Of a stretch of 64,000 nucleotides of DNA, positions 58,334 to 64,000 are shown piece by piece (within the stretch, counting starts at the first letter, position 1; each line of letters starts with the position of its first letter). The notes under the pieces are model-generated. The model was not told where the DNA came from and did not search any database. It worked only from the letters and a program-made list of their open reading frames with translations. Origin of the DNA: Acidobacteriota bacterium (GTDB lineage: Bacteria > Acidobacteriota > Vicinamibacteria > Vicinamibacterales > CAVVIG01). Where the stretch lies: the NCBI GenBank assembly GCA_018268955.1, contig JAFDVO010000014.1:1-64000 (forward strand), read 5' to 3'. Position numbers and translations under genes: made by a program.

Positions 58334-58728
58334 TCAGGCGGGCTTCGCCGGCAGGTGATAGCAGGAGACGAACTTCAGCGCCTCCATGCGCTCGAAGTCA
58401 CGATCGAGGGACCAGACGAACCCACCGATGCCCGCGGCGAGCGATGCCACGAGCAGGTCCCTGATTCCGAAACGCTGCCCCGCGTCAGCGGCCCGTTCGA
58501 CCCAGCCGGAAAGCGGCCGCCAGGTCTCTTCTCCGGAACGAGTTGGGGCAGTGCGGAGAGGGCGCGGAGGAACGCCCGACGATCGTGCTTCGCGACACCC
58601 GCCAGCAGTTCGAGGCGGACCGGCAGGGCGAGGGCCACCTCGTCTGCGTCGATCAGCGAATCGAGCGTGTCGCCGATCCGGGCCTGTCGACGGGCGGCAA
58701 TCCAGACCGACGTGTCGACGACGATCAC
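58334..58728 (-). pseudogene. vapC: VapC-type PIN-domain toxin, frameshifted
   Basis: GTG start overlaps the vapB stop. Residues 1-62 give the PIN N-terminus (IVVDTSVWIAARR, then RLELLAG with the acidic Glu). After LVPE the original frame turns into nonsense, but the frame shifted by one base continues perfectly: [49 protein letters not shown] and a stop at 58334. The total, 395 nt, is one base short of 132 codons. A G lost in a GAGGAAGAG context near 58531-58534 explains it. Either a real inactivating mutation or a sequencing error; with it the toxin lacks the last two metal-binding Asp. Confidence 0.85.
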
Positions 58729-58931
58729 CGTGTGCCGCGTTCCCGCCGGCGGAGCTGCGTGGGATCGAAGGTGTACTCCACGCGGCGCACCAGCTTCTTC
58801 AGGTCTTCCATCCTGCTGCGACGGTCGACCTCGCGCAGCGCGAAGACCACGGTGTCGGTCTTCGACCTGAAGCCGATCGCTTCACGAGCCTCGTCTATCA
58901 AATCGGCGGGCAGGTCCAGCGTCGTGCGCAT
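58725..58931 (-). CDS. vapB: VapB-type antitoxin (ribbon-helix-helix)
   Basis: A 68-residue antitoxin: N-terminal RHH DNA-binding part (MRTTLDLPADLIDEAREAIG and KTDTVVFALREVDRR) and a short toxin-wrapping tail. Start is ATG. It overlaps vapC by four bases (GTGA). It should repress its own operon. If vapC is really broken, the antitoxin is without its toxin. Confidence 0.88.
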   Translation of the reverse strand: MRTTLDLPADLIDEAREAIGFRSKTDTVVFALREVDRRSRMEDLKKLVRRVEYTFDPTQLRRRERGTR

Positions 58932-59018
58932 ATGAATCGATGCTAATCGTATGCTCCCAGCGCGTCAAAAATCGGGTCTTTCGTATGCAGCAGACCGGAG
59001 ATGCGGAGCGCCGGGACT

Positions 59019-60829: not shown

Positions 60830-60859
60830 TTGACACGCGCGCGGCACTCCGGATACGCT
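60830..60859 (+). promoter_or_regulatory. Promoter of the histidine operon
   Basis: TTGACA at 60830-60835 (six of six) and a weak -10 region within GATACGCT (60852-60859), spacer 16-18 bp. Transcription would start near 60866, just before the leader-peptide ATG, so the leader may be translated as a nearly leaderless message. Confidence 0.55.
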
Positions 60860-60868
60860 CAGCGGGAC

Positions 60869-60946
60869 ATGATCGTTCGCGTCCACCACCACGTGCATCA
60901 TCATCATCCGGCCGCTGCCGGGCAGGTGGAGTTGCGCGCACTGTAG
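60869..60946 (+). CDS. hisL: Histidine operon leader peptide HisL
   Basis: A 25-codon ORF starting ATG 60869 and ending TAG 60946, with seven His among eight consecutive residues (codons 6-13, CAC CAC CAC GTG CAT CAT CAT CAT at 60884-60907). A GGGA lies just upstream. Such a His run next to a terminator and biosynthesis genes marks an attenuation leader: ribosomes stall at the His codons when His-tRNA is scarce. The remaining residues (PAAAGQVELRAL) have no visible role beyond setting the position of the stop. Confidence 0.88.
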   Translation: MIVRVHHHVHHHHPAAAGQVELRAL

Positions 60947-60987
60947 GATCGGATCGACGAACGAACCGAGCGACATGCAACCCGCCT
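60924..60987 (+). promoter_or_regulatory. Antiterminator segments of the histidine attenuator
   Basis: AGGTGGAGTTGC at 60924-60935 pairs with GCAACCCGCCT at 60977-60987 (11 pairs, one G-U, one bulged A). The second segment contains the 5' arm of the terminator, so the two structures exclude each other. A ribosome stalled on the His codons leaves the first segment free and lets the antiterminator form; a ribosome reaching the stop codon at 60946 covers it and lets the terminator form. Confidence 0.8.
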
Positions 60988-61003
60988 CCCGGCGGGTTTT
61001 TTT
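60979..61003 (+). terminator. Intrinsic terminator of the histidine attenuator
   Basis: AACCCGCC, loop TCCC, GGCGGGTT, followed by five or more T. Eight base pairs, strongly GC. It lies 63 bp before hisI. Confidence 0.9.
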
Positions 61004-61065
61004 GTGTCTGCGCTCGGGCAGACCACCCGTTCTCGTGGAGCCAGCAGAGGGACGAAAGGACAGCG

Positions 61066-61383
61066 ATGAAGATCGATTTCTCGAAACTCGACGGCCTCAT
61101 TCCGGCGGTCATCCAGGATGCCGACACGCTGGAAGTGCTGATGGTCGGCTTCATGAACGAGGAGGCGCTCGAGAAGACGAAGCAGACCGGCTTCGCGACC
61201 TTCTGGAGCCGCACGCGCAACAAGCTCTGGATGAAGGGGGAGACCTCCGGCAACCAGCTGAAGGTGGTCGAGACGCTGGTCGACTGCGACGAAGACACCC
61301 TGGTACTCAAGTGCAAGCCGCTCGGCGACGGCGTTGCGTGCCACACCGGCGAGCGCACCTGCTTCTACCGGAAGTTCGAATAG
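61066..61383 (+). CDS. hisI: Phosphoribosyl-AMP cyclohydrolase
   Basis: Third step of histidine synthesis: opens the adenine ring of PR-AMP. The 105-residue product is the HisI domain alone, not fused to HisE. Zn/Mg-binding motifs VDCDEDTLVLKC and ACHTGERTCFYR and the TFWSRTRNKLWMKGETSGN block are all present. ATG has AAAGGA at the right distance. First structural gene behind the attenuator. hisE is not in the window. Confidence 0.96.
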   Translation: MKIDFSKLDGLIPAVIQDADTLEVLMVGFMNEEALEKTKQTGFATFWSRTRNKLWMKGETSGNQLKVVETLVDCDEDTLVLKCKPLGDGVACHTGERTCFYRKFE

Positions 61384-61390
61384 CGAGCGA

Positions 61391-61462
61391 GGGTCGGTAA
61401 GGCAGGTCAGGCAGGTAGGACTGTGACAGTCCCACCCGGCCGACCCGCCCGACCCGCCTGGC
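61391..61462. repeat. Nonamer element with palindromic core, between hisI and hisG
   Basis: Left arm words GGTCGGTAA, GGCAGGTCA, GGCAGGTAG; core GGACTG-TGA-CAGTCC; right arm words CCCACCCGG, CCGACCCGC, CCGACCCGC. Period about nine; arms are imperfectly complementary, so the RNA should fold into a long hairpin. Confidence 0.75.
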
Positions 61463-61493: not shown

Positions 61494-62381
61494 ATGAAAC
61501 TCAAACTTGGCATTCCGAAGGGGTCGTTGCAGGACGCGACGATTCAGCTGTTCCAGCGCGCCGGCTTCAACATCACCGTGAGCTCGCGCTCGTACTTCCC
61601 CGCGATTGACGATCCCGAGATCGAGTGCATGCTGATCCGCGCGCAGGAGATGGCGCGGTACGTCTCGGACGGCGTGCTCGACGCGGGACTCACGGGGCTT
61701 GACTGGATCGCGGAGCACGAGGCCGGTGAAGGCAAGACCGGCGTCATCGAGCCGATCGCCGATCTGATCTACGCGAAGCAGAGCTTTGGCAAGGTGCGCT
61801 GGGTCCTGGCGGCACCGGAGGACTCGAACATCAAGTCGGCGAAGGACCTCGAGGGCAAGACCATCGCGACCGAACTGGTGCGCGCGACGAAGGCGTACTT
61901 CCAGAAGCAGGGCGTGAACGTGAAGGTCGAGTTCTCGTGGGGCGCGACCGAAGTGAAGCCGCCGATGCTCGCCGACGCGATCGTCGAGGTGACCGAGACC
62001 GGATCGTCGCTCCGCGCCAACCGGCTGCGGATCATCGACACGCTGATGGAGAGCAACACGCAGCTCTTCGCGAACAAGACCGCGCTCGCCGACAGCTGGA
62101 AGAAGAACAAGCTGCAGAACATCGCGCTGCTGCTGAAGGCGGCCATCGAGGCGCAGGGGCGCGTCGGGATCATGCTGAACGTGAAGCGCGACGACCTGCA
62201 GAAGGTGCTCTCGCTGCTGCCGGCGCTGCAGCGCCCGACGATCTCCAACCTGAGCGACGATCAGTGGGTGGCGGTCAACACGATCATCGAAGAGAAGGTC
62301 GTGCGCAACCTGATCCCGCAGCTCAAGGCGGCCAGCGCCCAGGGGATCGTCGAGTATCCGCTCAATAAGATCGTGCTCTAG
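61494..62381 (+). CDS. hisG: ATP phosphoribosyltransferase, long form
   Basis: First, committed step of histidine synthesis: PRPP plus ATP. The 295-residue length is the long (HisG-L) form with a C-terminal ACT-like regulatory domain, so it binds histidine itself and needs no HisZ. Conserved blocks: [50 protein letters not shown], and the C-terminal [27 protein letters not shown] precedes the ATG. So the pathway has feedback inhibition as well as attenuation. Confidence 0.96.
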
Positions 62382-62477: not shown

Positions 62478-63710
62478 ATGAGAATCATCGAGTCCACCAA
62501 CAGGCGCGCGGTCGAGGCGCTGTTTGCGAAGAAGGAAGCGGCCGACCGGCTGTTCGAGCGCAAGGTCGCGGCGATCGTCGAGAAGGTGCGCACGGGCGGC
62601 GACCGGGCGCTGCTGAAGTTCGCGAGGCAGTTCGACAGCCTCTCCCAGCCGATCGAAGTGAGCCGGGAGGAGATGGAAGCCGAAGCCGCGAAGCTGCCGG
62701 TCGACGTCCGGCTGGCCATCAGGAACGCGGCGAAGAACATCGCGCGCGTCGCCGCTCGGCAGATTCCGAAGCACTTTGACGTGCAGGTCGTCCCAGGCGT
62801 GCAGGTCGAGCAGCGCGTCGAACCGCTCGAGAGCGTCGGCTGCTACGTGCCCGGTGGCCGGTTCCCGCTGCCCTCGTCCGTGCTGATGACCGCCGTCCCG
62901 GCTCGGGTCGCGGGCGTGCGCGACATCATCGCCGTCTGCCCACGGCCGGAAGGCAGTGTCATGGCGGCCGCCCTCGAGGCTGGCGTCACGAAGCTGTTCC
63001 GCGTCGGCGGCGCGCACGCGGTGGCGGCACTCGCCTACGGCACTGAGTCGATCCCACGCGTCGACAAGATCGTCGGCCCTGGCAACAAGTGGGTCGCCGA
63101 AGCCAAGGCGCAGGTGACGAAGGACTGCGCCATCGACTTCTACGCGGGCCCGACCGAAATCGTCGTCGTCGCGGCCAGCGGCGATCCGCGCTGGGTGGCT
63201 GCAGACCTCATCGCCCAGGCCGAGCACGACCCTGAAGCGCGCTCCGTCTTCATCACCTGGAAGAAGGGGTTCGCCACGCGGGTCAGCAAGGTGGTCGACC
63301 GGATCGCGAAGGGGCGCGACATCGTCACGAAGTCGCTTGCCGCGCACGGCGCGATCGTGATCGCGAAGGATGCGGACGAAGCGATGACGCTCTCCAACCG
63401 CTTCGCTCCCGAGCACCTGGTTGTCGAGAGCGACGCGCTCATCAATCGTCCCATCGTCGCCGGAGCGGTATTCGTCGGTCCGCACACGGCGCAGGCGGCC
63501 GGCGATTACGCCACCGGCTCGAACCACGTGCTGCCCACAGCCGGCGCGGCCCGCTTCCGGGGCGGCCTGAGCGCGGCGGATTTCGTGCGCGTCATGGCGG
63601 TGCAGCGGCTCACGGCCGACGGCCTCGCCCGGCTCGCCCCGACCATCGTGCCGCTCGCAACGGCCGAAGGGCTGCGGGCGCACGCCGAATCGATCAAGGT
63701 GCGGCTCTAG
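62478..63710 (+). CDS. hisD: Histidinol dehydrogenase
   Basis: Last two steps of histidine synthesis, histidinol to histidine with NAD+ and zinc. A 410-residue protein with GYVPGGRFPLPSSVLM-type NAD region (CYVPGGR), KIVGPGNKWVAEAK, IDFYAGPTEIVV, the zinc/catalytic AQAEHDPEA and RFAPEHLVVES, and TAQAAGDYATGSNHVLPT. Slightly short at the C-terminus compared with E. coli but the conserved end is present. Confidence 0.96.
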   Translation: MRIIESTNRRAVEALFAKKEAADRLFERKVAAIVEKVRTGGDRALLKFARQFDSLSQPIEVSREEMEAEAAKLPVDVRLAIRNAAKNIARVAARQIPKHFDVQVVPGVQVEQRVEPLESVGCYVPGGRFPLPSSVLMTAVPARVAGVRDIIAVCPRPEGSVMAAALEAGVTKLFRVGGAHAVAALAYGTESIPRVDKIVGPGNKWVAEAKAQVTKDCAIDFYAGPTEIVVVAASGDPRWVAADLIAQAEHDPEARSVFITWKKGFATRVSKVVDRIAKGRDIVTKSLAAHGAIVIAKDADEAMTLSNRFAPEHLVVESDALINRPIVAGAVFVGPHTAQAAGDYATGSNHVLPTAGAARFRGGLSAADFVRVMAVQRLTADGLARLAPTIVPLATAEGLRAHAESIKVRL

Positions 63711-63721
63711 GCGGACGGATC

Positions 63722-64000
63722 GTGATCGAGAAGTACAAGAAGCCGGCCGAACTCTACGACGGCCTGCGCCTGCACCAGAACGAGAACACCGGCGGCTGTT
63801 CGCCGAAGGTCCTCGAGGCGCTGGCGTCACTCACGGCGGAGCAGGTCGGCTTCTACCCTCCATACGACGCGGCCACACGCGCGTGCGCCGCGTACCTCGG
63901 GGTCGATCCCGATCGCCTGTCGCTGGTGAACGGGCTCGACGAAGGGGTGATGGCGCTCGCCGTGGGCTACCTGCGTCCGCGCGGCACCGGGGATCGGCCC
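63722..64000 (+). CDS. hisC: Histidinol-phosphate aminotransferase, partial
   Basis: GTG 11 bp after hisD; 93 codons reach the window edge with no stop. The product reads YDGLRLHQNENTGGCSP, then VLEALASLTAEQVGFYPPYD and LSLVNGLDEGVMALAVG, the N-terminus of the fold type I HisC family. PLP Lys and the rest are outside the window. Transfers the amino group from glutamate in the seventh step of the pathway. Confidence 0.92.
   Translation, partial: MIEKYKKPAELYDGLRLHQNENTGGCSPKVLEALASLTAEQVGFYPPYDAATRACAAYLGVDPDRLSLVNGLDEGVMALAVGYLRPRGTGDRP

Follow-up and report, generated by a model that had tools for sequence, protein, structure and literature searches.

A predicted histidine attenuator with a probably leaderless leader peptide upstream of hisI in Acidobacteriota

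The his operon in the window, the whole 64,000-nucleotide stretch of DNA analysed here, is preceded by an element that, as judged from its sequence and from RNA modelling, is very probably a ribosome-mediated transcription attenuator of the classic type, responding to the supply of charged tRNA-His. Attenuation of the his operon belongs to textbook knowledge, for the most part from Enterobacteria, and Acidobacteriota is a common soil phylum in which regulation has been little studied. The mechanism itself is known; the phylum, the breadth of occurrence and the probably leaderless layout of the leader appear to be new.

Organization of the leader region and the his operon

All elements of the leader region are located on the plus strand. 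The promoter (60830-60859), read directly and also located by script, consists of TTGACA (60830-60835), an 18-nt spacer and TACGCT (60854-60859); position 60830, at which the range given in the earlier note began, is the start of the -35 box. On direct reading, 9 nt separate TACGCT from the ATG at 60869. A scan for the sigma-70 consensus called no promoter, its rule requiring 9 of 12 matches and the -10 being TACGCT, and was replaced by the comparison of relatives. The leader ORF (60869-60946) codes for the 25-residue peptide MIVRVHHHVHHHHPAAAGQVELRAL, with seven His, and ends with the stop codon TAG (60944-60946); His-rich ORFs are likewise found before hisI in relatives. The sensor codons (60884-60907) are three CAC, one GTG and four CAT, and are followed in the minimum-energy fold by a hairpin, CCGGC-CGCT-GCCGG (60908-60921), lying between them and region 2.

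Region 2, the 5' strand of the antiterminator (60924-60935), lies inside the leader ORF, and region 3, its 3' strand (60977-60987), overlaps the 5' arm of the terminator; both were assigned from complementarity, covariation, a duplex control and a permutation test. The two strands form 11 pairs, including one G-U, with one bulged A: A60924-U60987, G60925-C60986, G60926-C60985, U60927-G60984, G60928-C60983 and G60929-C60982 precede the bulged A60930, and G60931-C60981, U60932-A60980, U60933-A60979, G60934-C60978 and C60935-G60977 follow it. The strong intrinsic terminator (60979-61003) has a GC stem (60979-60986/60991-60998) and a run of seven T (60997-61003), and its stem begins only 110 nt from the start codon, most of this distance being leader ORF. 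The locus carries the parts that define this class of attenuator, i.e., a His-rich ORF (7 of 25 codons), an intrinsic terminator and an antiterminator that is, by computation, exclusive of it. The earlier note had described the 25-codon leader with seven His codons, the terminator with GC stem and T-run, and an 11-bp antiterminator using the terminator 5' arm; the leader agrees base for base, the terminator was found again, and the coordinates of the antiterminator are exact.

The first structural gene is hisI (phosphoribosyl-AMP cyclohydrolase; 61066-61383, plus strand; NF000768, 145 bits against a cut-off of 126), followed on the same strand by hisG (61494-62381; TIGR00070 and TIGR03455), hisD (62478-63710; TIGR00069) and the 5' portion of hisC (63722-64000), which runs past the window. 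The order hisI-hisG-hisD-hisC proposed in the earlier note holds, with hisC assigned as the best match (TIGR01141) at a score below the curated cut-off, 229 of 276.55 bits. Beyond the window, hisC is followed by hisB, hisH and hisF, each over a cut-off, and hisA, a best match below cut-off, so that the gene order 3' of the attenuator is hisIGDCBHFA. Between hisI and hisG, a GC-rich imperfect inverted repeat lacking a T-run (61398-61459) is possibly an intercistronic processing or stability element; matches of Rfam microRNA models to this repeat were sub-threshold and were rejected as chance.

Conservation of the His-rich leader

The named loci nearest to the HisI of the window carry the titles Acidobacteria, gp6 Acidobacteria, Vicinamibacterales and Luteitalea, and Vicinamibacterales is by taxonomy an order of Acidobacteriota; the proviso of the earlier note, that the host be an acidobacterium, is borne out by these titles together with the taxonomy, and the titles place the host probably in Vicinamibacterales. 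The search covered the genome of the window and those of 59 relatives, 60 in all, of which 46 carry hisI. In a first scan for short ORFs upstream of hisI, requiring a minimum of three His per ten codons, such an ORF was detected in 44 of the 46; in the remaining two, G009 and G023, the contig ends 0 and 102 nt upstream of hisI, respectively. Relatives that keep hisI without the His run, named in the earlier note as the observation that would speak against an attenuator, are therefore rare. Extension to 126 loci (the 46 plus 80 named loci) gave 108 distinct leaders, 7 duplicates and 11 loci without leader. These 11 comprise three contig ends, three loci with non-acidobacterial titles, one titled 'bacterium' and four with acidobacterial titles (L050, L052, L092 and L123, all among the 80 named loci), before whose hisI the scan found no leader.

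A strict scan (at least four His in 10 codons, within 350 nt) was applied to 117 deduplicated upstream regions of at least 300 nt from two classes. It detected a His-rich ORF in 103 of the 117, as opposed to 3 of 117 reverse complements and 19 of 2,340 dinucleotide shuffles, and no other amino acid showed a comparable excess, the next being Arg with 51 forward and 51 reverse. The leader peptides have medians of 24 residues and 6 His (108 leaders). CAT and CAC are used nearly equally in the same set (333 and 320 codons, respectively), indicating that the amino acid, and not the base, is what is kept. A cluster of only three His codons is present in G016 and G054. For L059, the automatic scan chose a wrong ORF, the better one being MLRHGHHTAQPTVRRGGAADLHVR; this locus was kept as scanned within the 108. 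The same device is found in front of hisI in Bryobacterales, which belong to a second class, Terriglobia. The extension of his attenuation to an acidobacterium, suggested in the earlier note for a single genome, is supported by leaders in both Vicinamibacterales and Bryobacterales.

Pairing of the terminator and the antiterminator

A terminator follows the leader in 99 of the 108 cases, the scan finding none in the other 9. For these 99 leaders, the duplex was computed between the stretch from the His run to the stop codon and the stretch extending from before the terminator into its 5' arm. The region 2-region 3 duplex has a mean energy of -26.8 kcal/mol, compared with -20.4 kcal/mol when region 2 is shuffled. 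In 50 of the 99 leaders no more than 5 of 100 shuffles were as good as the natural sequence, and in 28 no more than 1 of 100; the other 49 miss the 5-in-100 level, and some leaders, among them G015 (68 of 100) and G034 (83 of 100), show no excess at all.

Covariation was analysed on MAFFT alignments made from sequence only, A1 with 35 Vicinamibacteria-type rows and A2 with 34 Bryobacterales-type rows. These 69 of 95 reference sequences were picked by eye and the 26 omitted appeared to be more diverged or of mixed type, so that the selection may flatter the pair counts. Antiterminator cells were paired at 76.7% in A1 and 81.5% in A2 (0 of 500 shuffles each), as against only 24-53% (A1) and 27-49% (A2) for slid versions of the antiterminator. 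Cells in which both sides had changed numbered 15 in A1 against 7.5 expected from shuffles (4 of 500) and 16 in A2 against 9.0 (1 of 500), without correction for kinship. The number of antiterminator pairs with two-sided change, 4 in A1 and 2 in A2, was not above that in shuffles. Terminator pairs were kept in 98.2% of cells (35 sequences).

The flanks beyond the conserved core were also compared. Of 65 and 39 sequences, 35 and 36, respectively, could be anchored, and 19 and 22 remained after removal of near-duplicates. Pairing of the flanks is stronger with the native partner than after exchange, as only 3 of 20,000 permutations (n=19) and 731 of 20,000 (n=22) did as well. Apart from this removal of near-duplicates, all of the pairing and covariation statistics ignore kinship. 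The comparison called for in the earlier note therefore came out as expected for an attenuator, in that relatives retain the His run as well as the alternative pairing, the latter showing compensatory changes. At the level of sequence and its comparison, the ORF, its His run, the terminator, the antiterminator with its covariation, the promoter spacing described below and the link to his genes form one recurrent arrangement.

In both classes, region 2 often carries an A opposite C (GGCGG-A-GTTGC or CG-A-CGGGC), forming a mismatch or bulge, as at position 60930 in the window. This A may tune the antiterminator against the terminator.

Predicted mode of switching

The transcription start, translation of the leader, ribosome stalling and read-through on histidine limitation are what we infer from this anatomy. 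RNA polymerase would start at the leader ATG or a few bases ahead of it, giving a near-leaderless 5' end on which ribosomes would initiate. With ample charged tRNA-His, the ribosome would reach the stop codon (60944-60946) and cover region 2, leaving region 3 to the 3' arm of the terminator, and transcription would end at 60997-61003. Under a shortage of charged tRNA-His, the ribosome would halt at the His codons (60884-60907) with region 2 exposed; region 2 would then pair with region 3 ahead of the synthesis of the 3' arm, no terminator would form and hisIGDCBHFA would be transcribed. Without a ribosome, the His codons would pair with region 2 and the terminator would form. In the predicted ribosome-free minimum-energy fold, the hairpin at 60908-60921 is extended into a 1:2-type hairpin by pairing of His codons (60901-60905) with region 2 (60925-60929), and the terminator is intact.

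These states were modelled by ribosome footprints. As long as the 3' arm is still missing from the RNA, regions 2 and 3 pair at a probability of at least 0.5 in 96 of 99 leaders with the ribosome in the middle of the run and in 81 of 99 with the ribosome at the last His codon, compared with 15 of 99 with the ribosome at the stop codon, a state that masks region 2 by construction. For the full leader RNA encoded in the window, the computed terminator probability is about 1e-7 in the middle of the run, 0.007 at the last His, 0.97 at the stop codon and 0.95 without ribosome. When full equilibrium is computed for a stalled ribosome, the probability of the antiterminator averages 0.30 (median 0.09), compared with 0.07 when region 2 is shuffled, and it exceeds that of all 20 shuffles in 34 of 99 leaders. 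Since the antiterminator wins at equilibrium in only part of the set, most members would need the order of events during transcription, as in the classic model. The geometry proposed in the earlier note, in which a stall frees 60924-60935 and the stop codon masks it, is reproduced by the footprint computation and more weakly at full equilibrium.

Probable leaderless arrangement of the leader ORF

In 96 of the 108 leaders, 7-11 nt lie between the end of a TAnnnT motif and the start codon; this holds for 60 of 5,400 random positions in the same regions. In 47 of the 108, a near-consensus TTGACA is present as well at 17-18 nt spacing (score at least 8 of 9), compared with 4 of 2,140 controls. Bryobacterales leaders often show a TGnTATACT-like extended -10 instead, a feature that was not counted. 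With transcription starting about 6-7 nt past the -10 box, this spacing would correspond to a 5' UTR of 0-5 nt, and the leader peptide is probably translated from leaderless or near-leaderless RNA. In the window, the spacing places the start of the transcript probably near 60866.

Leaderless translation had been guessed in the earlier note and called unusual. The guess gains from the conserved arrangement in 96 of 108 leaders, but the second part needs correction, as leaderless leader peptides are on record in the accessible parts of two reports, for trpL/rnTrpL of Sinorhizobium meliloti (PMC7298713) and for trpL, leuL, ilvL, thrL and metL of Streptomyces lividans (PMC8079986). The trait that these probably share with the present leaders is an attenuator peptide translated from the 5' end of the RNA. 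They differ in that none of the leaders named there senses histidine and in that they belong to other phyla, and leaderlessness in the present case is deduced from spacing.

When the leaderless promoter pattern was searched across the genome of the window, 9 matches were found against 4 for the reversed pattern, and the pattern was rejected as too loose for listing more leaders. Elsewhere in the window, on the minus strand (58375-58931), a VapB-like antitoxin gene (PF09957) is followed by a PIN-domain ORF just below the Pfam cut-off. A promoter-like site (58929-58968) places its -10 a few nt before the antitoxin start, which from this spacing is perhaps another leaderless start.

Distribution across Acidobacteriota

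A covariance model of the Vicinamibacteria type (R1) matched 69 of 297 genomes of the phylum at E<=0.01. All of its 47 matches at E<=1e-4 are located before a his gene, 42 of them within 500 nt upstream of hisI, and the other five before hisG (three, family f31) or hisD (two, f18). By Pfam, hisG was confirmed in L227 and hisD in L187, and L228, L229 and L197 were assigned because they are nearly identical to these two loci. In front of hisG, additional His leaders are present in f19, f74 and a single f37 genome. In these other acidobacterial families the leaders are of quite different sequence (L227, L228, L229, L237, L242 and L201 before hisG; L187, L183 and L197 before hisD), which suggests either repeated origin or retention of an old leader through operon rearrangement.

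For the 14 members of the order without hisI, no strong leader match was obtained (best E 0.008, a fragment). Only one of the 14 has a HisD match, and several of these genomes are incomplete. Seven genomes lacking both hisI and a HisD match are at least 97% complete, and their organisms are therefore probably histidine auxotrophs or users of undetected enzymes.

A model of the Bryobacterales type (R2) matched 92 of 297 genomes at E<=0.01, many of them weakly. Matches weaker than 1e-4 were not counted as leaders without inspection, and when 20 places with weak R1 or R2 matches (E 1e-4 to 0.01) were inspected, ten (L230-L234, L238-L241 and L244) were rejected as apparent terminators or chance matches, having no His-rich ORF.

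Leaders of other composition were observed in family f37. Ile-rich leaders, MSHTGSAIISAAIAIIPSREGA and MSHAGSTLIIAAIAIIPSREGA, with a GC terminator, are located directly before ilvA (threonine dehydratase, identified by Pfam) at L236, L246 and L199 (G278 and G212), and represent a candidate Ile attenuator in Acidobacteriota. In L245 (G183), the short ORF MILIPAIHPRPSTLRAGGSRMIG, with four Pro codons, is followed by a terminator and then by proC (pyrroline-5-carboxylate reductase, Pfam), a candidate Pro attenuator in a single case. In relatives, no Trp leader was found before trpE (20 loci) and no Phe leader before pheA (17 loci); the pairs of Trp codons seen before trpE belong in most loci to the last part of a preceding ORF, which is similar in sequence, and were rejected. 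Leaders for aromatic amino acids are thus not an obvious feature of the host order.

Alternative interpretations

Among other readings, the one that survives best is that the terminated leader RNA also works in trans as a small RNA, on top of attenuation, like rnTrpL of Sinorhizobium. The anatomy of rnTrpL is similar, an RNA extending from the leader start codon to an intrinsic terminator, as given in the available portion of PMC7298713; the present leaders, however, diverge strongly in sequence between families outside the paired regions, and we consider such a second role improbable.

Far less probable is a His-rich small protein that acts in trans, for instance as a metal binder, with the terminator merely ending its transcript. 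His-rich peptides bind metals, and the leader gene lies between a promoter and a terminator of its own. Conservation is limited to the His run, however: the other residues vary freely between families, except near the end, where the codons spell region 2. Moreover, the leader stays before his genes even where the first gene shifts from hisI to hisG or hisD, it has no strong match where hisI is missing, and a protein acting in trans would give the pairing of region 2 with region 3 no role.

We regard as similarly unlikely that the terminator obeys another signal (T-box, riboswitch or RNA-binding protein) and that the His ORF is a bystander or auxiliary. T-boxes do occur on his operons in some Firmicutes and Actinobacteria, as described in the part of PMC9413887 available to us. 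Against this, none of the Rfam families, T-box included, attained its gathering score in 20 leader loci or in the part of the window that was scanned (hits followed up to E 5), where a weak match to Trp_leader (17.1 of 41 bits) was rejected as sub-threshold chance. The 110 nt between start codon and terminator stem consist mostly of ORF, and the His specificity of the ORF would be left without a place.

That a random short ORF happens to lie upstream of an ordinary promoter-proximal terminator is practically out of the question: short ORFs are common in GC-rich DNA (80 ORFs of at least 20 aa in 6 kb), but the comparative data already refute this, through the excess in the strict scan over shuffles and reverse complements and the fixed distance to the -10 box.

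Comparison with known his leaders

The Rfam model of the enterobacterial his leader (RF00514, His_leader) gave no match in 21 genomes at E<=0.001, E. coli as positive control being matched, and none in the 20 leader loci (gathering score 49 bits), nor did it appear in the window list up to E 5. The acidobacterial leaders share with the hisL leaders of Enterobacteria a short ORF containing a His run, an antiterminator and a terminator that exclude each other, and a position directly before the his operon. In contrast to RF00514, besides the failure of the covariance model to match, they precede hisI, region 2 lies within the last part of the ORF, and the start codon follows the -10 at a distance of 7-11 nt, too short to accommodate a Shine-Dalgarno site. 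As the 20 scanned leader loci belong to no Rfam family, the leaders could be added as one.

In the earlier note, his attenuation by leader peptides was held to be established in Enterobacteria and some other Proteobacteria. This range is correct as far as it goes but too narrow, since the accessible text of PMC9413887 describes his attenuators in Proteobacteria and three Firmicutes lineages, with Acidobacteria unmentioned in that text, and that of PMC2965389 describes His leader peptides before hisS genes of bacilli. The Firmicutes leaders (hisS/hisZ of the B. cereus group, Peptostreptococcaceae and Erysipelotrichales), compared here by description and not by sequence, likewise combine a His peptide with a terminator and antiterminator outside Proteobacteria. 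They occur in scattered small lineages, whereas the acidobacterial leaders, of probably leaderless layout, stand before almost every hisI of one order and are widespread in a second class. Distances between leader and gene are treated in PMC4833913, as seen in its available part. According to the accessible part of PMC2965389, a survey of 2010, almost all of the attenuators predicted in the phylum were without assigned function. No report of a his attenuator in Acidobacteria was found in the open literature; Lopatovskaya et al. (2010) lay outside this search, and an earlier mention is possible.

Biological implications

The near-universal presence of the leader in one acidobacterial order and its wide occurrence in a second class imply that this attenuation is either old or repeatedly evolved. 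A broader proposal, to which we give somewhat less than even chances, is that leader-peptide attenuation is phylum-wide, ancient and consistently leaderless, covering His leaders before hisI, hisG or hisD together with the candidate Ile and Pro leaders, and that initiation at the 5' end is part of the sensor. If this were true, the switch would respond to the state of 70S initiation as well. The roughly 100 diverged leaders, with their common and probably leaderless layout, constitute a natural data set on how the function of a switch is kept while its sequence changes; they could also serve directly as a histidine sensor and allow leaderless translation to be tested in Acidobacteriota.
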